In this document: positions 3,401 through 51,194 of the stretch, one piece after another
Numbering within the stretch: the first letter of the stretch is position 1
How the letters are laid out: every line of letters begins with the position of its first letter
Assembly (NCBI RefSeq): GCF_921293095.1
Contig: NC_060252.1
Span: 8,308,001 to 8,372,000, forward strand
Direction: 5' to 3'
Length of the DNA: 64,000 nt
Source: Ischnura elegans
Lineage: Eukaryota; Arthropoda; Insecta; Odonata; Coenagrionidae
Program-made: the position numbers and the translations under genes
The notes under the pieces: generated by a model
What the model was told of the DNA's origin: nothing
Seen by the model: only the letters and a program-made list of their open reading frames with translations
The model's database searches: none

Positions 3401-6082
3401 GCATCCTTTAAAATTTATGGGAGTCAGGGGCATTTTGTTACTCCATGTACCACATACAAAATCATTTCCTTTATTTCCTTTTTTCTTCATTCTCATGTTC
3501 ATCATAACGTTTTCATCCATAAATGGCCTTGGGTTTCATGAGAGGATTGATAAAGTTAATTCTGAGAACATATTGTTAATTCTAGTAATACATTCAAAAA
3601 GTGCCTGATATTTGAATTATGAATATGCTGATGTTTATATTTTTGTCTTTCGAACAGCCCACAAATATACTGGGAGTTATATAGGTACTACTGGTAAGAA
3701 TCAACTGCTCAGTTACTTTTCCTACAGGGAATGTAAGTAGTGGGCTTTGACTAAATCAATTTAATGACATTTTGGTTATCCTTTCTGTACCACTTAAAAA
3801 TATTGGCACTGAACTTTGTAAATATAAATATGTCACGCTCTCCTCTCATAAGTTTGGGGAAACAGGCCTTAATTTTGCCCTCTTATTTTTTCCTCTCCAT
3901 GGTAAATTTCTGGATTTTTCAATGATTAACCAAATGGAAATGATCAAATTTACTCTGCAAATGATTGAACGTTCTGCTTCTGGTGTCTGGTGTGTGGTAC
4001 ACATTTTTAATTGGTGGTTTGAGGGCTTGCTGGTGTTGGCTTTAAATGTGAGTGCTAGGGAAACTTGCAAGTTGTCAAAAATGTGGATTCTAATCCATAG
4101 CATTTTTTGCCTTAGCATGCTTGTGTGTGTGTGTATGGATTGCTTTTAAGTTGTTGAAATGTACATTGAAATATTGCAAACCAGGGCTTATCTAAAAATA
4201 AGGACTCATTTTTCATCAATTGGCTAGTTATTTAAATTTGCTATGGTTTTCGTGGATTAATTTAAAACAACCCTCCCATATTAATATTTCATGTGTTCAG
4301 TATATTTTCCCAAGCTGTAATACTTTATACATCCCATTGTGATGGAAGCTAGCTACAAATTCTATTGTCAAATAAGTTTGTCATTGACTCAAAACAAAGT
4401 CTTTGAATAAAATTTGACATCTACTTTACCCATCCTGTGTCAGTTAATCACATCCATGCTAATTTTTCCTTTTTAAGTTTGTGAAAGTGATAGTCTCTGA
4501 GGCATGAGAATGGATGGACTGTGATCCACTTGAATTTGTACAAATAGTTATATTCTTATGGGTGACATATGTCAAGTTCTAGCCAGGCTGTTAACTGGCC
4601 TTTCATTACATTATAATTAAAGTTGTGAAATACATTCCCAGCAATATTTTCCCACCAATAAAATAACACTCATGGAAATTAGTTTTTACATTTTCTGCCT
4701 GTGGTTGATGGTAATAAGCAGATGCACTCATATCTATCCCATTATTATTTTGCACCCATATTATCCCATGTATAATTTGGAGAAAGTGCTTCGGAGATTA
4801 GTTATTTATTAAAGCTGAGCCTGATAAATTGAATTTACTCGGTGAACTTGTACTTATATTGTTGAAAATGAAATGTTAGTGCCGTTTTCAGTACATTCTC
4901 TGTGAGAATCAAGGCATTACTCGCCCCTTGCAGTCATTTCAAGGCAATTGAAATCTTCAGTTCAGATCGGAAAGAAAATTTTCCATTGCATCTGCAGTGT
5001 GTTGTACTGAGCAGTAGCATCATTTGTGTTCTTATTTAGGAACAAACTTGCATTATTGAGCTTTAAAGAGTTTTTTTGTCCTATGTTACATTTAAATTTA
5101 TTGAAACAACTTCATGCTTCTAGCACAAAAAATTCTGTAGTTAATTATAAGCTAACACATAATTGCCTCAAGTCTCTACTAAATGGAAGCATACAGCCTT
5201 TGTTATGTGTTTTGAGAAGAAAAGGTTTTACTTTCATTTTAAAAAATGCCTTTTTAATTCTATTCCTGGTATCTTTTTTACTTTTTCTTTCAAATGCAAA
5301 TTATTTCAAGTAACTATTGACTCATGCCCCACTTTTTTGCTTCATACTATTTTCTTCTTTGTCCTTAAGAGCTGTACAAGGAAACAATTTCTCTGTAATT
5401 TAGTTCAGTCAGTTGTAAATGATGTTTTAACACTCAATTGGGGATAAGTATTAATATATTATTTGATTTCCTTATTGGGACTTGGGGCTTCCTCAGTCAG
5501 CCTAATTCCATTTCCTTTTATCAAGTTTTCTTCATCATCAATTTCAGTATAGTCACTTTCTCTCTCTCCAGATGTCTTAGCTCCCTTCAGAAACATTGAT
5601 GTCCCTATTTAACATTCTGTTAACCTTATTTGTTTGCATATATCGTAAAGCTGAACTCTTAAGCATTTGGTAATCGAGGAACTATGAGGCTCATACATGG
5701 TGGAAGGGGCATTAGGGAACTTCAATGGTGACAAATGTGGTTTTGAGTGTGGTGATGGGATCCTGTAAGTCACAGGAGTGGCTGAATTCAGGGGTCACCT
5801 GCTGGGACTTTTTTCCAATGGTATTTCTGATTTGGGGACCTTATTTTTAGATAACCTCTTGTTCATAAAAATAGCCCTTTAGAAGCTAAAGAGACCACAT
5901 GCACTTACCCTATTTTGGCCTCATTGTGCCATTAGTGGATTGTTTTCATCTCCTCTGTGCATTGCTAAGTGCCTCTCTGTGATACAACTTTTATAGCTAT
6001 GTCAAATCCGTGGTGTGAGGATTTTGGATTCTGAATTTTACTCAGTTAATCAATCCAATCATCTTTGCTCATTGATTTCTAG
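500..6082. other. non-coding stretch upstream of visible ubinuclein exons
   Basis: AT-rich sequence in which I see no convincing exon on either strand. It is probably an intron of the ubinuclein gene, because the first visible exon starts in mid-codon. A TTAACCCTTT end like those of the TTAA-flanked MITEs elsewhere in the window lies at 1556, without a visible partner. The open frames here (the largest 125 codons) show no recognisable domain. Confidence 0.5.
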
Positions 6083-9000
6083 GGGTCTGGAAGATCCTCC
6101 TGCTGCAGGTGCCACTGGTGATTCCAAAGCATCTGTTGATGGCAAGAAAAGTAAATCTGGTATTCCCTTAAGAGTATTTCCGTGGAATGAAGAAGTCAGG
6201 TACAGGCTATAATAAGTATAATTTATTTAAATAAAACTGAAATTCATTGAACCTCAGTTGAGTGAGAGATTTTTTTCCCTCTCTTGACCTCTATTTTTAA
6301 TGTTGTGTCTGTGTCGTGCAATATAAGTGAATTTCCTCTAAGGCCTTTACTCCAAGACTCAACATTTAATAACATTCTCATTTCAAAATTTGTATTGGAC
6401 ATCTGTCCTCTCCTGTGTGATAAAAGAAGTCCTTCTCCACATATCCTTTTGCAGTATGCTGGTGAAGGAATACCAGTACAAATTATACTTGAGAAAGATA
6501 TATATCTTGCTTGACAGATGTATGAAACTTGATAGTTTGTCAGCAGTGCAGCAAATGTGAAAGTTTTTCTGCGCCTATGATTGAAAGGCCTTCAGGCTGA
6601 TACAAGTTGATTTATGCTTAAATTTTGCGAAATAGCATTCATTTTAGACAATCTCTCTTGAGTTCCTGCACTACCACCTTAATATTATTTTCTCATTTGT
6701 CCTTTGAATGAGCATCATGCCCAAATTCAAACAGTTAATTTACCCATAAATTTTTTCTATAAAAATGGTTGAAGTTAGTGTTGAATTGGTTAATGCAAAA
6801 TTTTAACTTATAAAATTTAAGTGTTAATTTTTCTGAAAAATAGCTGTTAAATTAAATGTTTATCTACATTTTTAACAATTAATGATAATCATTATTTCAA
6901 ACAATGGTCAATGACTCATACACAGTGATTGCATATTCAGTTGCACCTGGTGATGATAAGTTTTGTGTCTGCATTATAAGAATTGGTGATCTCCAGGAGG
7001 AATGATGTTGAAGGAAGTTGATAATTTACTCAAGTTTTTTCTACTTTAGGTCATTGCTATGTGAAGTGGTGAAAATTAAATTGCAGAGTTTTGAACTCAG
7101 TAAGCCTCGGAAAGAAAGTGCCAAAGAATATCTGAAAGGGTTTTTGGAGTCTGAAGTTCGAGGTCTTTGGCCTGCTGGATGGATGAAAACTATTATTCTT
7201 TACAGAGAAAGCAGAAGTGTTCATTGCAACACCATGTAAGTTTTGTTTTTCAATAGGTCTCAATAGTATTTTTGTAAATTCTCTTTCCCTGCTAAATGCC
7301 TCTGACTTGTATTACAGTAGACTCTCTTTATTACAAGGTTCTCAGGAGGGGAAGTTCGTAATAGTGAACCTTTCCTATATCTTGTAGCTCAGTTTTGCTT
7401 TATGTAGTTACGAACTAATAGTTACCTAGTCGTCAAAGTTCTTGCAAGGAATTGGGAATCCATAAATTATATAATGAATTAATGGACTAGCAAAGAATGA
7501 TGTCACAACAGCCGGTTGCCATGGGATGACCATTTTTTTTCCAAACAAATTCGTATTGCAGCAGTATCTTCCATGAGGAATTTTTGAGGATTGGATTTAT
7601 GATTTCTATGGTACTTTTAAGCCATCTTATCACTACTGAAAGTTGCTAAAGAATGTCTGCAACTTTCCTGTTTTTTTTATTATGAGCCTGGTGTTAATTT
7701 TCCATGCATAAAATGTTTTTATGACCGGAACAGATGATTTGTACATTCCCAAGGCACTTCCATGGTCTAATGTTTCCCCATGTTGGCTCTACCTCGCTTG
7801 GTAAATGAAAATGGGCTGTATGTGTTATTACTGTGCCTGTAAACAAAATATGGCGGCATAGTTCTTTATATATGTGACAAAATGCCTACTCACTGATGCT
7901 CCCAAGACAAATTTTTAGTCTGCTGTGCCAAATACAGTGGAGCTCACCTAAAATGAGTGTGGTAGGGTAGACTCCTGGGTTTTGTCTGCATTGTCATTTT
8001 GATGCAACGTTTCACCTACTGCGCTGTTGGTCTCCTCTCAGGCCAGGCTGAAGTGGAGAGTGCTTCTGTGTGTCCGATATTAATGCGGTACTGCCAGACT
8101 GAGAGAGTGCATTAGGGTGCCACGTTTTGCCACTTTTTTAGGACTGAATCATAATACCTGGCAAAAGTTGCATACCCGGGTGGGTATTACAGATATGATT
8201 TTTTTTTTTCAAAATAAGTTCTTCAAAATCAGTTTTTTCAAAATCTTCTGTTCACCATTGTGTTAAAATTTTGAATTTTTTAACGAAAAACGTAAAAAAT
8301 GTAAATAATTTAAATTCGGTTTTAGCAAGCACTCATTTATTTCAATCGAGTATAACATTCGTCTTTCCTTGATATTTTAGACCAAATACATCAGCTCTGT
8401 TGCCTTTAATTATTTATCGAGAAAATGACCTTTTATTGTGTCCCCGAAAGCAGTTTTCTGGGATAGGCTACCCGCAACACGCCGCCTCATTTTACGCCAT
8501 GCGAACGATAAATGACGCAAAATAGAGATGTTTTTCAGTCAAAACGTGGAAATCATGTCTGAAGTTGTCAAGGGTAGTCACTAGGATGGGAGTAAGCTCT
8601 TTTATGCCATTGCCGACTGTATTGACCATGTGATGTGGCAAGTGAAGTTGTAAGTTAAAGTTAAAAAGTCTCAGAATGAATGTTGTAAGCATGAATATCT
8701 TTGAGTAGATTTATGGAGTGAGGTTAGAACTTTTAATATCACTTAAGTTGAAAATATAACTGCAAAGAAATTACCCTTGAGAAATGTGGCTGCCCTGAGG
8801 AAGTATCATAATTTGAAAGTTAAATTTCAAGGTCAATATTACTTGATAGTGTGATACGGTACAGAAATAATTAATTTCCTGCCTAATGATTCCATTTCAG
8901 TTTGTGACGTCACAACATCACCAGTCCATTGTTATTTCCTAAAGTTTAGGCTTACATTTTCATTGATAATAGCTTTTATTGAAATGTTTTTCTTTGTTTC

Positions 9001-12000
9001 TGTGTCAACAGGACCAAACCAGGTAAGCCTAATACTGGACCCAAGAAAGCAGTCAACAAGCAACCTGTAAATTCATTGAACTCACCTGTGCAAAAGACAG
9101 CTGTACCTGCTGCATCAAAGACTTCACCAACTGTGTCTAATTCCCAGCCTAAAGCATCATCACCTGTCATAAATACTTCTCCAAAAGTGGTCACAGTATC
9201 CTCCAATGCAACCACAAAACCTGGTAATCCTTCTGCTGTTAGTGCAGTTAATGTTTCATCCTCCAAGGCAGCTATTCACACCAATGGATCCATAACAAAA
9301 TCAAATATGACCTCTGCTGCAAATTTGCCTTCCGCTCTCCAAACACCAATTTCATCTGCTTCCCCAAATAGCTCAGCGTCATCCTTACCACCAAGTGTTC
9401 CATCTTCTCTTGCCAGCAATGTATCTCCCTCTGTTACCATCATCAAATGTTCCACCTCTCAGACCATAACAAACACTCCGAGCCAAAAACTGAGCAGCTC
9501 TTTGTCGCGACCAACTACCCCCTCTGTGTCCACCCCCCACATTTCAACTCCCACGCATGTTAGTTCATCTGGTGGAGGGAAATCAAAGGCACTCAACAGT
9601 GGTAGCTTCAATGAATCAGACTCTACCAAGGTTCCCTCTAGGACAAAGTCATCTAATGATGGGAATAGGGAAAGTGTGGTGACAAAAAATCCTGTGTTGC
9701 TGCCCCAAGTGAATTTACCAGACTGCATCAGTGTTACCCCTGCTAATTCCATGCAGACTCCTTCAAACAAAAGTCCATCTACTCCCATCATGAGTCTTAA
9801 GCAGCGTATACTCCAAGATGCTGCTGCTGTGTCAGGTTCAAAGCAGTCTTCAGAAAATACTAACGGTGGCGGTAGTGCAGGTAAGCTTTTAACTTCAGGT
9901 GCAGATAATTGTGAGGTGCTTCTTGTTGGGGATGGGAAGAAGGAAGGGAAGTTGAACTTGTCAGGGTTGAGGCAATCTGGTATCCATAATCCAAAATCCC
10001 ACCCTCTCAGCATGGGACACAAAGTGGATGTGCCATCTAGTGTTAAGACTGAAAAGGATGCCGTTGCAAAAGAGAATCCAGTGTCTTTTGTTCCTAGGCT
10101 GAGTCCACCAAAAGAAGACAAATTTTCTGAGGGTAAGATAGTAGATGAGACCGTTACTGCCACTGATGTTCTTAGTCAAATAATTAATAGTAGTCTTGGT
10201 GGGTTTCCTAACTCATCAAATCCTGGGAAAGGTGGGATTAACTTAGACTCATTGTCTCATCGCCATGAGCATCTGGGGGATCAACATCTTGGGATGTTTA
10301 ATCGAATAGTATCGCACGCTGAGGTTGAAAATAAGGAGAAACTCAAGGACATTGTTGGAGTAGCTCAAACAAAGTGCTCTCTGAACTCCCGTGTTGATAA
10401 CCCCAATGCTGCCGTGGCTGATACTGAAGAATCAGTGCAGTTAGAGGTAGACCGTGTGATGAAGGAGCTTCTAGAGTTGCGTGAAATGACAGAAGACAGT
10501 ATGGAAAGTGAAACAGATAAGCACAGTGGTCCTCCATATAGGTCAAATGACAAAGCTCAATCGGCTTTGTCTAGCTCTGTGTCTGTCATAGCGGTGAACA
10601 GTGCCAGTTCTAAACATCACACTGCCAATTCCCAAACCCAAAAAATTAACTCTGCGGGACAAGTCTCCTCTAGTGCTATGAACTCATCATCTCAGTCCCC
10701 ATCTGCAGCCAGTCAGTTAAAGCGCTCGTCATCAGTGTCGTATAGTTCTGGAGTGAATCCAATACCCTCAACCAAATCGTACGGTTTCCAGGATGAGTTT
10801 CAGAGACATCTGTTGCAAGACTGTGGAAAAAGTGTGATTGATAGTGATGGGGCTGTGTACATGGGTAACAAAGTGCACAAGGAAGGAGAGAGGAGTAGGA
10901 CTGCTAGCTATAATTCTTTGTACCAGAATACACCTCTTGCCTCACCGGCTGCCCTTGACAGAAGTCGGGGATTACAAAACTCAGTTGATGGTAAGTGTTT
11001 CATTTTAAGATTTTTTCAAGTTGCAAAATCGTGCATGGAATAGTGTTTACTTTTCTATTAATTGTTCATTTTGATTTTTCATTGTAAGGGGAAATTTGTT
11101 ACTCATCCTCATGCCACTCTAGCATTAATGCAGAAATATTTCATTTTTTTTTAAATTATGTAATATACATATATTGAAATTTTGTTTTTAACATTAATGT
11201 TACTTAATTCATTTGCAGTGTTTAGCTAATTAAATTAATAATTTTGCTTATAAAGATATAAATTTATCTGCTTTCAAAAAACATTCTCTTTTTCCCCTTA
11301 ATGTCGTTTTACTCATTGGAGCATTGGCCCCAGATGGTCACTCCCTTGTCTTTGCGGGCTAAAATTTTAAGGGAAATGATGTCAGTACTTATGTTTTTGG
11401 ACTTAAAATGTGATATTTTGGGAATGTGCATTTTTTAGGGTTCACCAAATAATGGAATAATTTTCAAAAATTATGAAAATTCCCATTTACATGGTAATTT
11501 TGTTAGTGGATTGTGAAAAGGTAGGTGGAATATTGTGTCAAATCTAATGACTCCCTTATATCCATGGAGATATAAATTAGAAATAGACACTCGATAATAT
11601 AATGTGAAACTATATAAATGTATGTAATGGTAAAGCTATATGTTACAGATAATGGGTGCCCTCTTGGATTGTGTAGCCACTTGCTCTGTCCGTCAATTTA
11701 CCTAGCTCGTCCGATAACTTGGGGTCTCATTTTGCAAATATTTGGGGCAGGTTATCTTGCTAAAGATATAACGTACAGTAAGGATTTAAGTGAGAGCAGC
11801 CCATTCAATGGCATTTTTTTCATGCAAGCCATATACAGTGGAATCTTCAATTTACAAAATACTCCTTCTTACCTTTTTTCACTTAGGGAAAATTATTGAA
11901 AAAAAAAGCTCCAATTTGTGGTACCGAGTATATAGGCAGTCCCTAAGAGCTTCTTCGAAGAGAGTCTTCCTCCCACCTCTTTTAAATGAATTTCAATATT

Positions 12001-36029: not shown

Positions 36030-38596
36030 TAGAGCGTTCCACATTTAGTTGAGAGTACGGGCCTTATGGATAACAGTGTTGACAAGCTTCCGCTCCGCCG
36101 GCAGGCATCCTAACAGCTTATGCAACCAACTTAATATGGCGCCAAAATGGATTTAGTTCAAAAAGGAGTTAGGGATCGCACGAAAGACGGCGTAAATTAA
36201 GGAATTTTTTAGCGTAAATTACTATACCTTTGCTGCAATATAAAAGGAAAAATCTTTTGTTATTTCATGTATGTACTTATTCAATGCACAAGCTGAATAA
36301 TGAATAATCTGTAATGTAAAAAAAAAACAATAAATTGAAGGATAATAAAAATTATCGCCACTCCTGAATGAGCCAAAATTTCTATTCCTCCCGTATTATG
36401 CAATATTTTTTGGCTCTGGCTAGTATTACATGAATGGCGATTTTATGTAAAACATCATCAATCTTGAATTTTTCAAAATTTTCCCGTACTTGGTTTATTG
36501 TAAATTAAAGATCTCTTTTCAAGCTGACATCTTCAAAGCTAATTTCCTTAATGTTCTTTTTCCTCCACCTTGTAGTAGGCAAGGATTCCAATTTCCTTGA
36601 GTAATAAGAGGCATTATCTACCACTATAATTGATCCTTCGGGTAAGTTTGCAAGAAGTGAGTGCTCAAACCATCTCTCGTAACACTCGCCACCCACTTCT
36701 TCATGCTCATCCATTGAGTTCTTTTTGTACAGAAACCCATGCGATGCTCCTTTTATGAACCCATTTTCCGTTCCTGCGTGTATAATTACAAATCGTCCTC
36801 CTCGGGAGGTGGGGGCCAAGCCCAGTATTTATTCCAGCAAGGAAAGCTTGACGCGGATTTTCTAATTGTTTGTTTCGTAAACTAATGTTGACTATCTCTC
36901 CAACAGTAATCCAACTTTCGCCTGTTAATACACTCGTCCTGTGTTCGCGACGATATTTTTTTTAGCTGCCTTAAGTAATTAATTGTGCCACCAACGAATA
37001 ATATCATCCCTTTCGATAAGGATGATTCTTTTCCCCCTGCGTTCGTACACGAAGCCTATGTCCAAAAGAAGACAATATACTGTTGTCCTTTTGTAATCTG
37101 GGAGAATACTATCCATATATACCGAGTTTAAGATGGATTTTAAAGTCGGTGGACTATTTTTCACGAAGGATTCATGTACCTTCCTTCTAATTCCCGATCT
37201 CACAAAATCGTCGAAAATCACGGCTCTCGAATTTTTGTAAGGCTGTCTAATTTCTTTAGTTTTTGAAGGAGTTACCAATGGACTACGGGAGCTTTCCTTT
37301 CTCACTCTGTAAACAGTAGACTCCGAGCACCCAGAAGCCTTCGAAGTCTCTCGGGAGGCCTCACTAATGATGAGAGATTTCCTGAAGTACGAGAAGACTT
37401 TGAGCACCAACTGTCTTTCGCGGCTTAAGAGCTTCTCACCTTTTCTCCTCTTCTTTATATCGGACATATTGATTGGGCGTGTTACAGCAGAGATAAGTGT
37501 AAAACACACTTCACAATTCTCAAATTCAGCAGACCACACAACACTTGTTCACTCAAAAAATAATGCAACGACAAACTGAACGCCGTCGTAAATTCTTCCC
37601 ACGGCCCCTTCGGCTAGGGTCGATTCTGGTGCAGGTTTTATGGTACCCTATGAAAGGAACTCAGAAAAAACCCAACCCCCCTTTTGTAAAAGGCGTGCAC
37701 TGGATGGGGTAGTGTTTCGCACATATAATGAGATATTCTCTTTCTTGGTTTCCGCGATGGGACCGAAACACCCAAGGCGAAAGCGACTTATTTCCAAGCC
37801 GCTTGCTTACTTTCGTGCATCAATGTATTAAGATAAAAACACTACTGTTACGACGTATGAGTATTCTCTGTTTAGTATATCAAACGAATAGATAAATACA
37901 TTTCATAGTATGCATTGACAAAAAACTCCTTTTCCGCCCGAGAATTTTCCCTCTGCGCGCAAGAAAAAGCAAGAAGCCCGGCCCAGCGGCGCCGTAATAT
38001 TTTTTCCTAAGATCAAAACCTTGTAACTCGCTTCAGAATTGATGTAAGTTAATGATTTTTTCACCAAAAATAACTTTGTAGTTTTCTTCACATTTGATAC
38101 GCAGCATATAGGGACCTACGACGTAAGAAACGTAAGTTAGTAAGCGACTACTTTTTACCTTGCAAAACTCAAAAATTTCTTGTCCTAAAGGGTGTTACGT
38201 AGGCATAACAGCATTTTTACTCAATATTTGTACAATTGGTGAATACCTTCAAAGAGAAAATAGTGTGAAGAATTTTTTACAGAAGATTTATTTCAATACA
38301 GAAAACGGTCAGGCAGACATTGCGAGAAGAAGATAAAGTAAAAAAATACACGTTTCTGACGGAAATTTAAGGAAATGTTTTTTATAGCTTTTGTTATAAT
38401 TTTTAGCGAAAAACTATTAAAACCAATGATTGCAGCATTTCTTTCTACATTAGAATGCAATTTTTAATCAGTGCATAACGCAACATTAATTTTCGTGCTG
38501 TTATTGACAACACCGCGCTCCCGGCCTTATGGAGATTAACATGGGAAACGATTCTCCATAAGAGCCCATACTGTCAACTAAATGTGGAACGCTCTA
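36030..38596 (-). mobile_element. Tc1/mariner-like transposon, decayed
   Basis: Inverted ends TAGAGCGTTCCACATTTAGT plus TGA match perfectly for about 23 bp and continue imperfectly (GGGCCTTATGG against GGGCTCTTATGG). A TA flanks each end (36028-36029, 38597-38598). 2567 bp. It carries a broken minus-strand transposase and starts 10 bases after the end of MITE-A copy 4. Confidence 0.85.
36490..37539 (-). pseudogene. Tc1/mariner-like (DDE) transposase, frameshifted
   Basis: The N-terminal piece (minus strand, 37470 down to 36979) has a Lys/Arg-rich start and a helix-turn-helix-like segment with SKASGCSESTVYRVRKES. After a stop and a change of frame, TGESWITVGEIVNISLRN and ENPRQAFLAGINTG can be read. 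After a further 1-bp shift near 36825, TSRGGRFVIIHAG follows and then SIIVVDNASYYS, which holds the second catalytic Asp. The first catalytic Asp is not evident where expected, and the segment with the last catalytic residue is missing. Inactive; the family assignment rests on the TSRGGRFVIIH and VVDNASYYS blocks and the TA-flanked ends. Confidence 0.7.
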
Positions 38597-42265: not shown

Positions 42266-42608
42266 ACCATATCTCACCAAATGCAGTTGAATTCCTTCTA
42301 CTTATTGTTTTTTTCTTGCCACTGAGGCAACATTAATAATATAAGAGAGCAATGGAGATTGATTTTGAATGATGTGAAGTTTCAGATCTGCCAGGAGGCA
42401 AATGCTAAATTATTAAATTTGATGATTAAGAGGAGACTTGGAAGCCTGCTCAAATTTACAAGGCGACTAGTAAATCATTCGTGAAAGGTGGCTGAAAGTA
42501 GCAGTCCAAGCTTTAGTGGTGATTTGGCAGGTGAGTTCAAGCAAAAACTGATGTGAATCTGGAAGTACTACACCTGGGGTATAAATCAAGATACTATCGT
42601 GATATCCA

Positions 42609-42920
42609 CCCTGGCGAAAAAGAATGGTAACATTTGTGTAACCTAATGGTAACTTTGGAGTGTACCATTAGTGTAGGAAAATGGTGAAGGCTGTGTGTAA
42701 CCATAGTGTACATAGTTATAACTCCAGTGTACAATCTGTGTAACTTTGTGGTGAAGTGGCCCAATCTGTGTAGGTTTTGTGTGTATATTGTGTAACAATT
42801 GGCGCTGAATTGTGTACAGTGAGTACAGTCTGCAGTGGTACATGATGTGTACATGATGTACACTATAGTACCATTTAGTACACAGGTGTACAATAATGGT
42901 ATCAAGGGTACCATGCAATT
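42609..42920. repeat. left terminal GTGTA/GGTAC array
   Basis: Irregular array of GTGTAC, TGTGTAA, GTGTAGG and GGTACC units spaced roughly 10-25 bp. Two open frames on the minus strand (rich in Tyr, Thr, His and Cys) are just translations of the array. Confidence 0.7.
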
Positions 42921-42998
42921 AGGATTAAACTTAAATACATAAATGCAGAATGTTTAAAAATCAATCTTTATTAGTGTATGTACATATTTGATGAATTA

Positions 42999-45900
42999 CT
43001 ATAAATCATCTGTCGTTTCCTCCCCTACTCCCTCTTGATGATCTTGATAGTTCCTGTTGAATGAAAAAGTAAAATTAAAAACATATGTCAAGCAAAATTT
43101 TATAACATGATAAAATGGACAATAATTTGGTTTAATGCATAACATTACACTTTTTCTGGCAAAATAATCTTTATTTTTTCAAAAATGAAATGAAACTGGT
43201 TGAGAAGACTTAATGTTTCACAATATTTTCATACATAACAACCCCTTAAGTTACTGCAGGGTCATTCCATGTCAACTCAACAAGGGTCCCACGCCTGCCA
43301 TCTGAGATTTTGATCATTTTTTCCCTGTTGTTGTGCTTCTATGATTTTTTAGTGATGGTTGTAAAATGGTGGGCTACAGCACTTACATTTCAGGGCTTCC
43401 CCAAAAAGGTGGGTTGAATTTGAGTATTGAGATTCCTATAAACCCCTATCATTCTTTAAATTTAGCAGCCAAGCTATTTTTAATTTCCAAAGAGTATAAA
43501 ATGGCAACATTTTAGAAAATATATGAATTTACTAGATATTTGCAATTAGGCAAAAAACTGGTTGAATATGTACCTACTTGAAGAATGAATACATACCTCT
43601 GACCTCTAAGCCTGATATTAAGCACTCCAGGCCTTCTCAATAGCAGTGACTGTGCAATCTGCCAAGGTGTACTGACTTCCTGTAATGGTCTTACGCACAA
43701 GAACTCTGATCTTAGATGTCAAACACCTATGGCCTAAATGATGTCTACTCTGTGTTGAGAGCTAAAGCATAGCAACATGAAACATGGGATTCCAATGAAA
43801 GTAACTAACACATTGAAAGTGCTCAAACTCAAAAGCAGACTTGAACTCCATATATCTAAATGTCTCCACTTCCCATATATTTTCATCATGCACCTGGATA
43901 TTACATCGCTGATGTGAATGAAAACAGATGTTACAATGGCTTTATTGTTCAAACAGTTGAGGGTGGTACAATTCTTGTGAATTTCCTGACATCTGATGGT
44001 AAGGCTAGGTCAAACACGTGGCCAAAATAAGGATTAGTGCAGGATTACATAAACAAATTTGTGTTAATGCTAGTAACAGTGCGTAACACCATTACAGGAA
44101 GTCAGTACACCTTGGCAGATTGCACAGTCACTGCTATTGAGAAGGCCTAGAGTGCTTAATATCAGGCTTAGAGGTCAGAGGTATGTATTCATTCTTCAAA
44201 TAGGTACATATTCAACCAGTTTTTTGCCTAATTGCAAATATCTAGTAAATTCATATATTTTCTAAAATGTTGCCATTTTATACTCTTTGGAAATTAAAAA
44301 TTTATATATATACATTTAAAGAATGATAGGGGTTTACAGGAACCTCAACACTCAAATTCAACTCACCTCTTGGGGGAAGCCCTGAAATATAAGTGCTGTA
44401 GCCCGCCATTTTATAACCATCACTAAAAAATCATAGAAGCACTATCAATCATGGGAGCAACTTCAGGTTTAATTTTCCTGCAAGAGGGAGGATAGTGCAT
44501 GGTTACAGCTACAGGGGCACAAATATGGTAGTTTTGAATAATTTGACTGGTGCGCAGAATTTTTGTGTGTGCCTCATTGACTTCAAACACTCATATCTTG
44601 GAAATTACTTGCAATGGGTCTTTAATATTTTGGATTTTTCTTAACTAAGGTTGAAACTAACAACAGGGATAAAATGATCAAAATCTGAGATGGTGGGCGT
44701 GGGACCCCCCAAAAATTGGTTGAGTTGACATGGAATGACCCTGCTCTTATTTATTTTACCTCATACCATGTTGATTCAAGCTAACTTATATTAAGCCAAT
44801 TGGTAAAATAAAATTTGAAGCAACTTACGGAGCCAGGTTCTCTGCAATTTTTTTTTTCCCCATGCCAGTGTTCCGTCGTCCATTCAAGTCTCTGGCCAGC
44901 TTTGATAGCATGGTCATCACCTCCGCAGACTTTTGAGACAGTGCTGAGTGATTGCCCTCAAATCCAGTTCTGGTTAAGAACATTTCGTAGTGAGCTGCAG
45001 GGAAACCATAACAAATCAATAAATTATATCTACAAGTGCAACTCAGGAATATCTGTAAATATATATATACCTCTAGCTGCTGCTTCAAATTGTGTTGCGA
45101 ATGGCACAAGCTCTCCCTTATTCTGGTCATGGACCCGATACCTCAGTCGCTTGGCCTCTTCTCGACTGTAACAGCCTAGCAGGAGTGCCCTGCACCATTT
45201 CCTGCTATTAGTTTCGCACTCCATCACTCTTAGGGCAGTTGCAGCAATTGGTATTCCTGGTGCAATAAATGCCTTGAATGAAAAAAAAATGAAAATGAAA
45301 AAAAAAAGGAGTTATGGGAAGAATGTTAAGATCACGATGTAGGAGACAATCTAGAATCTAGAAATTAGATTTTACCTCTTGTCCTTGTGCACTGCTGCAT
45401 GAAGCTAGTTCACTTGCGACACCACTCGTAGGCAATTTAGCATCTGCAACAAGCCACAATTATTCAAGACTGGATTTAGTACAATTTGTAAAATTAAGAG
45501 GGGGAAAAAGGCTTCCAAGAAGAGCATAATGCATAGCAGTAGCTGTTGCTGAAATGGAAGCTATTAATCTTTGTTGCAATGTCAATTATTTAAAATTTTA
45601 AAATGAAATAAAATATCATAGGAAAGATTAATAGGAGGGATTTAACAAGGAAGAGGCACTTATTCAACCATTGACCCACTACAGCATGCTTTGAATCACA
45701 CTTACTTAGAGTAGAGTCGACAGAGGCCAAGCAAAATTTTAAACTTGATACCTCTGAGGTCAAATTGGTAACTTGAGAGGTGAGGTCATCAAGTCTTGAG
45801 ATGATCGCATCATCTTTAATCGATTTCGCTTCTAAATCTTTCTTTGCTTCTAGAGCAACACATTTCCAGTGCTCTGCCTCCTCCTTGTATTTCTTCACTT

Positions 45901-46909
45901 CAGAATCTTGGTCTAAGCCACAAGGGAAGGTGTTACCAGATGAAGACTTTGAAACACACTCATTGAGGCTGGCAGGCTTGGACAACTTAGATTTCTTTGA
46001 AACCCCAGGTTTGCCTTCACAAGTGATTGCCTTGACAAACTCATGCATTTTGTCCGTACTACAAGTATTTGCACTCCTCTTCTTACTTTCATTCTCTGCA
46101 TTGGACTGCAATAGGAAAAAATGTTATCAGTATGCCATATTCTTGCATATAAATATTGGCCAGTGTTGAATGCTAAATTTAATTCATCCAGGGATTCAAT
46201 AAAATAAGAATGTGAGAACTCTATCGAACCTGAGATTCAAGTGAAGTCTCATGTTCGATTGTTTTGTCATGTAAATCAACACATAATATGCTTCTTATTG
46301 GAAAGACAGGATTCACGACATATGATGAGAAAATAATTAATAACTAATCGTAATAAGAGAGAAAACAAACCTTCTTCGGTTGCACCAATCTTCCTCGCTC
46401 TACTTCACTCTCAGACCCAAGAGCATCAGAATCTGTCGGTCGCAAAACTGGCCACTTCAACCTGGACTTCTGGATGCTTTCGTTCAATGCTTTTTCATTC
46501 TCTGTGGATACATCCCGTAGATAATAATAATTATAGCAAGTGTATTGTATTTTTTAAGGTTTGAAACTTTGAACACAAACCAAATCGAACTTTCAAAAAA
46601 TACCTAAGTCATACCTCGTGACATAATTCAGTAATACAATAGGCGACTTGGATGAAACTTACCGGCAATTCTACAAATGTAAACTTTGAAGAGCTGATAT
46701 TTGTCCTTCGCATCACTCCACTCCTTCGACTTTATCAGGTACTTTTGCCCGGGATTAAAGTCTTTATCATGCCTCGGCTTGTGGTGAACGAGTTGATGCA
46801 CTCTAACCGTTTCGTCCAGTGCATCCGTGTGCTTACACGCTACAAGCCAATCTTCCGGGATTTTTTCAGCTGCAGCAGCAACACAGTTGTCATTTACTGG
46901 ATAAGGCAT
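42999..46909 (-). CDS. coiled-coil, possibly BEN-domain protein, seven exons
   Basis: Exons in transcript order: 46909-46663, 46501-46371, 46105-45706, 45443-45376, 45272-45071, 44994-44829, 43053-42999. All have GT donors and AG acceptors, and every phase agrees, giving 422 residues; stop TAG at 42999-43001, AATAAA (as TTTATT on +) at 42967-42972. Exon 1 has WLVACKHTDALDETVRVHQL and FNPGQKYLIKSKEW, an N-terminal domain I do not recognise. Exon 3 is a Lys/Ser-rich linker and then a coiled coil (EVKKYKEEAEHWK through SRLDDLTSQVTNLTSEVSSL). Exon 5 has GIPIAATALRVM and SRKWCRALLLGCYSREEAKR, which resembles a BEN DNA-binding domain, though the match is by eye and tentative. No nuclease or DDE motif is evident. 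It fills a TIR-bounded element, so it may be the element's own protein or a captured host gene. Confidence 0.65.
43257..44743. mobile_element. fold-back element with GGGTCATTCCATGTCA arms
   Basis: CAGGGTCATTCCATGTCAAC at 43257 is inverted at 44743, and the two arms stay nearly identical for about 440 bp, for example AAGTCAGTACACCTTGGCAG against its inverse near 43665. The central spacer is about 370 bp. The right arm has about 210 bp (44443-44650) absent from the left arm. It lies in intron 6 of the coiled-coil gene and does not touch an exon. Confidence 0.8.
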
Positions 46910-47261
46910 TATTTATCTAAAGCGCAGATTTACCGAATCAAATCTAGAGAAGACCGACGTCAAAACTTAAACAAACAATCCAAACGTACATAAACCGACG
47001 CGTAAGGAAAAATCCAAGCAACGTGGTTACGAATTTCTGCATTCAGTTGTTTGTTTGGATATGTCCTAAGAGTAAAATAATACTTCATGAATTTAAAGTG
47101 TAACTTTCGATATGTTCTTCACTATGGCGTAATACTGTTATTTATCCTCCGTCTCAATTCCAAATAAATCCGGTTGGAAAGGAAAGTTGATGTACCTCAT
47201 GGATAAATTGTAATCTGATGTTAATAAAATCTTCTTTTCAAACCTAGTAAGTTATTTTGCA

Positions 47262-47706
47262 ACAAAAGTTCCCTCTAACACTGAGTGTTGATCTACACTT
47301 GACAAAAAAATGTGGTACATGACATGCACGAAAAATGGGTACAGTTGGTGAGAATGGCCTGTAAGTACAGAAAAAGTGTGGGGTAATATCTCTGTACTAT
47401 GAGTGTAAATTATTGGTATCGCGACACAGTGGTAAAATTGTGATGACATTTGTGTACCCAAAAATGGTGATTGATGTGTACAAATTGTGTACACTTCTGG
47501 TGTATGAATAGACTGGTAACTTAGTGGTATAATCTGTGTAACATCTTATGCATCACATTGAGTACAGCTGTGGTACCAATAATGTACAGGATGTACCAAC
47601 TGTACGATTTGTGTAACTTTGTGAGTAGAAAAGTGTAGTAAATATGTAATTTTACATAATGTACCATATTTTTACACATATTTGTTACACAGATTTTTCG
47701 CCAGGG
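47262..47706. repeat. right terminal GTGTA/GGTAC array
   Basis: The same type of irregular array as at the left end. Most units read GTGTA on the + strand, as on the left, while the last 60 bases before the terminus carry TTACACA in the inverted sense. Confidence 0.7.
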
Positions 47707-47792
47707 CACTCCTAAAGTGGGCCTATAATTGAATGAATGCATTGGTATCATTAGGAATAAGCTTCGGGGGAGGGTGACCCCCCTTACTCCAG

Positions 47793-49817
47793 GGGCGGAA
47801 TTCTGTACACGGATACCGACGATCGTCGGTGTCGGTAGCTACCGACGATCGTCGGTAGCACCGATAGAAATGTGATTCACAAAACGCCGCTACCGACAGA
47901 TTGTCGGTGCAACCGACAAATTCGTGACGTAATGCTTTTGTCGGTACGAAAGTGGCACCCGCACGCGAGGCTAGGCGCCTCGACCAATCATATTTCCCCT
48001 TTGTTTGCATTAAACAAATGAGGCTCCGAAAACGCCATCTGTTATTCGTCAGCCCGCGAAGAAGTTAAAAAGAGTTGATCACTGCTTTGTGAGATATTTA
48101 CGATGTTTATTCACTCTGCGAACACAATTTCTTACTCCCGTTGGTGCGATGTGGCTTGTATTCCGAGATTTTGCCGTATTTACCATAGGATTTTTTCTAG
48201 CCCAAGTAAAAAAGCCTTTTTATTCAAGGATTCAACGGTCGTTGATAGAAGAACACCGGCAACATTTGGTGCTCAATGTATTGGAATTTTCAAGTATAAT
48301 TGTCTTGAAGAGGACTTTGTCTGCTACATAATTGTTCACCTACGCTTATTATAATTGTATTCTTGGGATTAGCAGTGACGAAATTATTTTTATTAGTATT
48401 GTAACAATGTACCTTCATCTTCAGCCACGGTTTGTTTACATCGTTTGCCTCATTGTTCGCTGTGAGTCCGATGCTACCACAAGGGTAATTATTTCATTAG
48501 AAAACATTTTTGTCGCTTGAATTGAACATTTTGAGCTATTTAAAATACATTCGTTGAGAAAAATACCGAGATTCCGCGGATGTCACGGAAGGTATCATCA
48601 GTATCATCGCGTCAAGTGTTGTGATTGTGAACTTGAGTGACATACTTTACGCTATCTATTTGGAAGTGTTAACTTTTGCATTTTGATACCATTTGTGTTA
48701 TTTCAAACTTAGCGTTGATATGACTTTGACTAAATATGCTTGATCAGTGTTAATTTGTGATATACCGTTGAAAGTATGAAGGTTTTCTCGTGTTGAAATG
48801 AAATTTTTGTAGTTTTATGATGAATAATTCATTAAATGTTTCCTTGTTTCGTGCAATCATTCTTTTTATTTGCCCCTTTCTACCGATGGAATACACGGTA
48901 CGTACCTACTCAGTGCTCTTATAGTAATAATGAAAATCTATCTTGAAGTCCCGTACGGTGTTTGGTTAGTATGTTGAAGTAAATTCAGCATTAATTTTAC
49001 GGGAAGTTTTGTGCACCGGTAACGACGTCAAAGAGTGAGAGGAGTTAAGTGATGCCATTTATATTCTTCTAAAATATAGTAGCAATATGCTTTTTCTATT
49101 TCGTCGTTGCTGTCTGATGCTCTCAAGAGTACTTACGAAGGTAGGAGAGTTATTTTCATTATAAATCCCATTCTCAGATGCTCACATAGGGTATTGAAGT
49201 TAATATGAAAGTGAACGAAATGTCCACGTATATATTTCATTGAAAGTGCATCAATAAGCATTCGTTTTTATTGACAACATAAATTAATTTCGGATCCAAA
49301 CTTTACGAATCAACAATAGATACCTATCGTGTCTTGTTGTGAGTAATTTAAAAGCAAAGCAATACGTTACATACTTAAAATTACGGAATATTTATAATGT
49401 AAAATACCTTACGCTATTGGAACGCATAATGTAATATACGTGTAACATTGGTAAAGTTAAATACTGCTCCCACTATGTAAATTTTACGTTTCAAGTGTTT
49501 AATCAATCATTTTTATTATAAATAACATACAATTAGAGCGCTTCCACGGATCTAGCGTCGTAGATTATGATTTAAAATCCTCAGCTTAGGCCGAAAAGTG
49601 TAAACAAAAGTCCGCCATGATGCTAAAAATTTGTCGGTAGGTCCTACCGAGCGTTTTGAAATCGTCGGTATGTACCGACGCGTTTACCGACAACTGTCGG
49701 TAGGATAACGACAATCGTCGGTAAAACGTGTCTCCTGAATCGCTCGTACCGAGACTTATCGGTAGGACCGGCTTACCGACACCGACAATCGTCGGTACGG
49801 TGTACAGAATTCCGCCC
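47793..49817. mobile_element. element with ACCGACGATCGTCGGT subterminal palindromes
   Basis: Inverted ends GGGCGGAATTCTGTACAC and GTGTACAGAATTCCGCCC, with CAG repeated on both sides as a probable 3-bp target duplication; 2025 bp. The outer 150-200 bp at each end are packed with ACCGACGATCGTCGGT-like palindromes and half sites (ACCGAC, GTCGGT). The interior is AT-rich, with only short open frames and no recognisable protein. Unclassified non-autonomous DNA element. Confidence 0.75.
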
Positions 49818-51194
49818 CAGGCAATGGGGTCTGGGAAAATTCTTGAAAAATGACATGCCTGGCAATATATTATACATTATTTTAGCATTTGGGTTTCACA
49901 TATGTAATTCTGCAGGAAATCATATCATAACAGAGAAAATATAGGCAATAGTTTTAAATATTTTTTTATTTTCTTGAGGCTTTGGGGTATTGTTTTTTGT
50001 CCAAATGAAATGCATCGTGGAACACCCCCGTCCAGTTGTATAAAAAATTTGGATGCAAATTTGACCGTGGGACATCGGCATTATGGTTATCATACCACGA
50101 CTAATAATACCTATAGTTACACCACTGAATGAATGTATATGTACATATATCTGGAAGTGCACACTTTATGTTGAATATTGACTAACCTAATATTTTTTAT
50201 GTTGACCATTATGTAATGGCAGTAGCTATGGATGAGTTGAATGTTATTTCTATAGAAGTAAAGAAAGTTTTTTCTGTTCAACAAAAAGAAGAATTGGGTA
50301 TTTATTCATTCTCTCTCAATTGGGTATTGAGAAAAGAATTTTCCCACGTTATGCAAAGAAACTAAAGTTTCTTTCATTACCCTACTCTATGGCTTAAGCC
50401 CAGTTTTTAATTCACCCTGAAAGGATCGCTCTGTGCAGGCTGGGGTAGAACGTTAAGAAATATATGAAGGACAGTTTGCTGATTATTGTGAACTTGACTG
50501 CAAAAAGAATTCGGCTGACGTAAATATTGTGAGGCATACCTTGGTAATAGCCTTAAGGTGTGATGGTTAAGTAATGGAACTTTGATACAGGGCTGGTTTT
50601 CTTAATTTAAGTTTAAAGAGCGATTACGAAGGAGCAAAAATATGACAGCACTAGTGACTTTATAAGCCAATTTAATTCTATGGGATTGAAATGGTCGTTC
50701 AATAAGAGTATTTTAGTAAAGGAGGCATCGGATGATAATAATTTTGGTTATGATCCTAAACTATCATTCAGACGCTATTTAATCCATCATTTAAAATTAT
50801 GCCAATTGAGAGAACTACGATATAAACCATGATCCATGTATTACAGAATACCAAATTCCATGATACCATTAGAATAGAATTACTATCATTTTGTGATCCG
50901 ATAACATAATATCGTCTTTCGATGGTGCGGTTGGAATTTATGTGCAAGTTGGTACGATTGGGCCCTACGATATTACGGTGGTTACGGTTGGCACTTCCTG
51001 ACCTACTGGCGCCGAGCATTAGTCGTTTGTTATGCCGCACGTTTTAACATCGAGTTGACTGCACCGTGTGAGAATGACCGCGGTGTTTCTTAAAGTGTTC
51101 ATATTGTTTAGGCTGTGATGGACCTTATTAAATGAGATAATTCTCGGTAAATATCCTTAAATAATGCGAAAAATATCATTTCGTGTGATCCGCA
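49818..51194. other. intergenic sequence upstream of EEF2KMT
   Basis: Contains a solo end, GATGCAAATTTGACCGTGGG, at about 50050, matching the ends of the 54361-55705 MITE. The last 150 bp before the EEF2KMT start are relatively CpG-rich and should hold its promoter and 5' UTR; no TATA box could be assigned. A 90-codon minus-strand frame at 50768-51040 is probably not a gene. Confidence 0.45.

Follow-up and report, generated by a model that had tools for sequence, protein, structure and literature searches.

A 64,000-bp stretch of the Ischnura elegans genome (contig C7, positions 8308001-8372000; hereafter the window) carries a 5098-bp element which, judged from its sequence, is an internal-deletion (dSpm-like) derivative of a two-gene, 9.4-kb CACTA/EnSpm transposon belonging to the animal TRC elements. 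The reading we favour, with a probability of about 0.78, is that this is a young deletion derivative whose remaining accessory protein most likely binds the subterminal repeats and assists transposition, in the manner of the plant protein TnpA. The genome searched comprises 1.72 Gb in 110 contigs, and statements from the literature refer to excerpts of the papers cited by their PMC numbers. The features of the element are given below in window coordinates.

42607-42608, no strand: left copy of the 2-bp target-site duplication (CA), read from the sequence.
42609-47706, no strand: CACTA/EnSpm (TRC-type) internal-deletion derivative, 5098 bp, from its ends and the comparison with the parent.
42609-42621, plus strand: left terminal inverted repeat (TIR), CCCTGGCGAAAAA, 13 bp, exact.
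42609-42938, no strand: left subterminal repeat array of GTGTAC/TGTGTA/GTAAC-like units, from motif counts.
42967-42972, minus strand: AATAAA polyadenylation-like signal, about 27 bp past the stop codon.
42999-43053, minus strand: accessory exon 7 with the stop codon (gene model, as for all exons).
43257-44743, no strand: nested foldback insertion of about 1.5 kb in intron 6, with ends CAGGGTCATTCCATG and arms up to 99% complementary.
44829-44994, minus strand: accessory exon 6.
45071-45272, minus strand: accessory exon 5, BEN-like region (also from exon comparison).
45376-45443, minus strand: accessory exon 4.
45706-46105, minus strand: accessory exon 3, coiled-coil region judged by eye.
46371-46501, minus strand: accessory exon 2.
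46663-46909, minus strand: accessory exon 1, start codon at 46909, small N-terminal domain.
47175-47177, no strand: filler bases at the deletion junction, where 4,228 bp of the parent are missing, from the alignment to the parent.
47299-47706, no strand: right subterminal repeat array, from motif counts.
47694-47706, minus strand: right TIR (same 13-mer), 13 bp, exact.
47707-47708, no strand: right copy of the 2-bp target-site duplication (CA), read from the sequence.

The TIR sequence has only two matches in the window at up to two mismatches, both exact. Shuffled sequences average 1.31 matches at this tolerance, but the real pair is exact and located at the outer ends of matching arrays, and the element is flanked as CA/CCCTGG...CCAGGG/CA. 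The motif KGTAM occurs 34 times on the plus strand of the 738 bp of arrays, against a mean of 4.3 and a maximum of 11 in 2000 mononucleotide shuffles, i.e., about 46 per kb versus about 5 per kb in the remaining window, with both motif and array limits picked post hoc, after the arrays had been viewed. The accessory gene comprises seven exons (1269 nt, 422 codons), with GT/AG sites at all six introns and agreeing phases, and its AATAAA lies just inward of the left array. These results bear out the structure proposed in an earlier sequence-only reading of this stretch, namely a TIR-bounded 5.1-kb element with 13-bp inverted ends, terminal arrays and a seven-exon minus-strand gene.

The parent copy is located at C13:3203233-3212627. 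It spans 9395 bp, with the same ends, the same accessory gene and a TC/TC duplication; three stretches of it, of 3576, 993 and (at the end) 529 bp, are 99.4%, 99.8% and 100% identical to the window element, respectively. In place of the three filler bases the parent carries the 4,228 bp missing from the window copy, and the whole transposase gene lies within this stretch: four exons (placed by eye at GT/AG sites) and 891 codons at parent positions 4822-7770, on the strand opposite to the accessory, so that the two genes are divergent. The deletion left intact the TIRs, both arrays and the accessory gene, including 265 bp ahead of the start codon; intron 2 of the accessory is about 71 bp longer in the parent than in the window.

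A 637-codon open stretch, almost all of it in the last transposase exon, matches Transposase_21 (PF02992) with 44.4 bits, against a cut-off of 28.6. Residues D331, D417, C436xxC439, H652xxxH656 and FEGE from 675 (E676/E678) were identified by eye, with the catalytic residues assigned by our own reading, and their succession agrees with the D...D...C(2)C...H(3-4)H...E arrangement described for EnSpm and relatives (PMC12730594). In animals, CACTA elements from Schistosoma, Aedes and Tribolium are reported to have TIRs starting with CCC and 2-bp target duplications (PMC1636069), and the window element matches this TRC type in both. Transposase_21 (in the parent), the residue order, CCC TIRs with a 2-bp duplication, and subterminal arrays are hence all found in this family.

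In a second transposase-bearing copy, C13:17954466-17965465 (11,000 bp), accessory exon 3 contains a stop and has lost an acceptor, and the flanks of the copy are unmatched (TC/TA). Both C13 copies share the foldback insertion in intron 6, a feature unmentioned by the sequence-only reading, which is missing from the four derivative copies looked at; these show the site unfilled (TTACTG/CTCTTA, the slash marking the site).

With its transposase gene deleted and 99.4-100% identity to the parent, the window copy is recent, in agreement with the non-autonomous, young insertion that had been proposed from the sequence. The companion proposal, that the open frame reflects recent selection, is not supported. 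Over 396 codons, the window accessory differs from that of the parent by six nonsynonymous and no synonymous changes, and from that of the second C13 copy by 14 nonsynonymous and eight synonymous changes (raw ratio 0.49, also 396 codons). The two C13 accessories differ by 16 and eight (raw ratio 0.56). In these comparisons the window accessory is without sign of constraint, and its frame is open because the copy is young.

Searching the genome with the accessory protein yields 57 matches, of which 19 belong to the window copy, the two C13 copies and a relic on C1, while the remaining 38 span only residues ~368-400. Of eight fetched loci of the latter kind, five are 2,992-3,252 bp long, and the other three are of the same type but enlarged to 8.9, 11.6 and 13.4 kb by nested inserts. 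The stretches these eight loci have in common with the window element are 87-95% identical to it. A ninth copy, likewise paired (C3:16.2M, 2,356 bp), is without the residue 368-400 stretch. The larger TIR pairs (C3, 11.6 kb; C4, 8.9 kb; C5, 13.4 kb) were considered as autonomous copies and rejected, being elements of the 3.2-kb type with nested insertions. Among eight elements compared (the window element and seven others), none resembles the parent transposase at E 0.001. The relic, at C1:21.52M, contains accessory pieces with stops, and its best transposase match is no better than E 0.15. A 2-bp target duplication of varying sequence is present in ten of the twelve elements with both ends read, the exceptions being C1:32.88M (CA/GC) and C13:17954466.

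The exact TIR 13-mer occurs 309 times in the genome (150 + 159), against nine occurrences of a reversed control. This number was rejected as a copy count, since only nine of 30 fetched loci are similar to the window family. An unrelated repeat, with CCCTGGCGAAAAAT followed roughly by CAGACACTTCTTCACTTCCCTGCCACCCTGC, by eye explains 13 of the 30 (L037, L040-L043, L045-L049, L054, L055 and L061). At another sampled locus, L058 (C2:85087917), the 13-mer is followed by TGTGTGGTAAAA repeats, which suggests the end of another CACTA family. In all, 21 of the fetched loci are not similar to the window family. An empty site was sought and not found: when the two flanks are joined, they match nothing in the genome but the sequences beside the window element itself, and no unoccupied second copy of the target is present.

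The favoured mechanism can be outlined as follows. The transposase gene was lost in a single 4.2-kb deletion with filler bases, probably through faulty gap repair after excision. The accessory protein would consist of a small N-terminal domain, a coiled coil and a degenerate BEN-like C-terminal region; it most likely dimerises and binds the GTGTAC/TGTGTA-type subterminal repeats, like TnpA and TNP1 in plant CACTA elements, thereby bringing both ends together for the transposase. We infer an end-binding role because dense arrays are present at both ends, because the deletion spared the arrays, the TIRs and the accessory, and because plants offer a precedent: besides the transposase, CACTA elements there rely on another protein (TnpA in En/Spm, TNP1 in Tam1) which binds subterminal repeats and is needed for transposition (PMC2613891). 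Without a transposase, the accessory may occupy or compete for the ends and dampen activity. The window copy itself would be mobile only with a transposase supplied in trans, e.g., from a C13 copy.

The pairing of transposase and accessory is not restricted to this family. Out of 498 first-look candidates, 69 were scored against the parent transposase, giving 65 merged loci. With one or another of the queries, an accessory is found within 15 kb at 27 of these 65 listed loci, the two C13 copies included, and all accessories so found are divergent, although many of the matches are weak. Genome-wide, the Pfam BEN profile yields 20 matches with E values of 10 or less, eight of them over the cut-off, and none of the 20 coincides with the window or with either C13 copy. 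Eight of the 20 lie within about 12 kb of a listed match to the parent transposase, all eight divergent, where 0.03-0.08 would be expected. Query L079, a BEN-type accessory on C12, presents 55 matches in 44 loci, of which 17 lie within 15 kb of a listed transposase, all divergent, against an expectation of 0.26 that assumes 100 Mb per contig where the actual size was unused, and 12 Mb for C16. Query L084 presents 46 matches in 30 loci, seven of them within 15 kb of a listed transposase and again all divergent. DUF4806, a BEN subtype according to PMC11075544 (citing Pan et al. 2023), has 81 listed matches; a comparison by eye of these with the listed transposases revealed no divergent pair, and the match at C2:93224038 has a transposase match 10 kb away, in the same orientation.

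Four accessory pieces adjoining CACTA transposases (L079, L080, L081 and L083) all match PF10523 (BEN) at E 0.0011 or better, one of them over the cut-off, and L080 has in addition a very weak match to DUF4806 (PF16064; E 0.16). The one over the cut-off is L081, on C8, with 24.1 bits against 23.2. A PDB search with its BEN piece gives BEND6 only at E 1.1, the same value as an unrelated splicing factor. The PF10523 profile does not match the window protein up to E 10. The connection runs through L084, a gene with one in-frame stop which lies divergently on the upstream side of a C17 transposase with 43% identity. L084 is collinear with the window gene (shuffles reaching the score: 2/3000 for exon 1, 11/3000 for exon 2 and 9/3000 for the BEN-like exon) and has the phase-1 intron after exon 1 at the same place, although plain tblastn of the window protein against it returns nothing better than E 2.6. 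The BEN-like exon of L084 in turn resembles L081, with a score reached by 1/3000 shuffles. The window accessory thus appears weakly tied to the BEN-type accessories via its sister L084. The BEN assignment made by eye in the sequence-only reading finds indirect support in the resemblance of L084 to the Pfam-positive L081, and none in Pfam itself, given that neither the window protein nor L084 has a Pfam match to BEN.

Several results weigh against a BEN-type, end-binding accessory as a regular partner of the transposase. At 38 of the 65 listed transposase loci no accessory was found within 15 kb, in a search limited by introns and divergence; at one of these, L085, the 3.5 kb upstream contain none, by eye or by tblastn. 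Only one of the eight BEN pairs (that on C8) has a BEN match over the Pfam cut-off. Among the 17 pairs of L079, nine have E below 1e-4, one of which is the query's own locus, and the other eight have E of 0.03-0.5, while among the seven of L084 one is its own locus and six are weak (E 0.06-1.8). Moreover, many pairs are copies of few families, and hence are not independent events. As for the protein itself, the best Pfam match of its 422 residues is a baculovirus family at E 0.013, with 16 bits against a cut-off of 38, which is not meaningful; a PDB search with its C-terminal 140 residues gives no match; and single-sequence AlphaFold models of exons 1 and 5, predicted separately, are uninformative (predicted local distance difference test, pLDDT, of 46.0 and 47.5). 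The BEN-like exon of L084 has no Pfam match, the direct comparison of the window exon with L081 is not significant (665/3000 shuffles reach the score), and hhalign of the three near-identical copies against the BEN accessories yields P of 0.05 (local) and 0.11 (global), with a probability of at most 1%. Finally, the identity of the last residues is uncertain, since window and parent differ by 1 bp in an A-run and their C-terminal tails are read differently as a result.

The most serious competing explanation, though an unlikely one, accepts the same CACTA deletion derivative and has the accessory act on chromatin or against silencing rather than as an end-binding transposition factor. The literature indeed places BEN domains in chromatin factors and describes them as the DNA-binding part of repressors (PMC5704228, PMC11075544), yet the dense subterminal arrays and the precedent of plant TnpA favour end binding. 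The two roles are compatible, as TnpA has an effect on promoter methylation as well (PMC1636069).

The remaining explanations concern the origin of the gene and the source of mobility, and both had been raised in the sequence-only reading. That a non-autonomous element captured a host DNA-binding gene is very improbable. All seven of the top-scoring BEN matches lie far from the listed transposase matches, and some of them may be host genes, yet the best of all (C6:40266270) also resembles a transposon accessory, with E 2.2e-7. Because accessory and transposase occur together in the parent, the accessory is the transposon's own gene and not a newly captured one; it is also present in the second C13 copy, and its relatives stand divergent beside related transposases at the 27 listed loci. 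An ancient capture by the whole transposon lineage is possible. Least probable of all is that the 422-residue protein mobilises the element by itself: it is the product of the only gene recognised there, but Pfam finds no nuclease or transposase domain in it, and the undescribed mobilising protein proposed earlier gives way to an ordinary Transposase_21 gene, present in the parent and deleted in the window copy.

Other features were observed in the window. A second element, at 47789-49821, follows the CACTA element on its right after a gap of about 82 bp, and has inverted ends CCAGGGGCGGAATTCTGTACAC and ACCGACGATCGTCGGT repeats. An open 561-codon transposase at 30363-32048 matches DDE_Tnp_1_7 with 295 bits, and we take it to be piggyBac-like. 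At 36979-37539, a 186-codon frame with weak helix-turn-helix matches below the cut-off is possibly the start of another transposase, and at 9076-11043 a 655-codon serine-rich open frame with no Pfam match at E 0.01 is possibly a large host-gene exon.

A BEN-type or related protein head-to-head with a transposase at 27 of 65 listed loci is a testable candidate for the end-binding role in animals, a role that falls to a fast-diverging second protein in plant CACTA elements, and the window copy, with its accessory and no transposase, represents a natural separation of the two genes. We tentatively suggest, at somewhat less than even odds, that animal CACTA elements as a group consist of two genes, Transposase_21 and a separate divergent BEN-family analogue (not homologue) of TnpA that reads subterminal repeats; scattered BEN/DUF4806 factors would then partly be domesticated accessories, or their source. 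If true, this would link one animal DNA-binding domain family to transposons.

In comparison with known systems, the element itself is of a known kind and not a new kind of transposon. The excerpts of the PMC literature searched, a scope outside which subscription papers and Repbase lie, contain neither a link between the BEN domain and CACTA/EnSpm or other DNA transposons nor a description of an end-binding second protein of an animal CACTA element; to judge from these papers, the BEN-type accessory seems to be a variant not described before. In terms of BEN types, L079, L080, L081 and L083 match PF10523, whereas the window protein and L084 match neither PF10523 nor PF16064. SmTRC1 and the animal TRC elements (PMC1636069) share with the window family the CCC TIR, the 2-bp duplication, Transposase_21 and truncated copies in the same genome, but are described with alternatively spliced products of one unit, and no separate divergent accessory gene was seen in the excerpts of that source. 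Plant En/Spm (TnpA, TnpD), TNP1 of Tam1 and soybean Tgmt* likewise present a second protein, subterminal arrays and deletion derivatives that move with proteins supplied in trans, their second proteins being non-homologous between families (PMC2613891). Maize TnpA, however, is an alternative splice product of the transposase's own transcription unit (PMC1636069), whereas the second gene of Ischnura elegans is separate, divergent and BEN-like.

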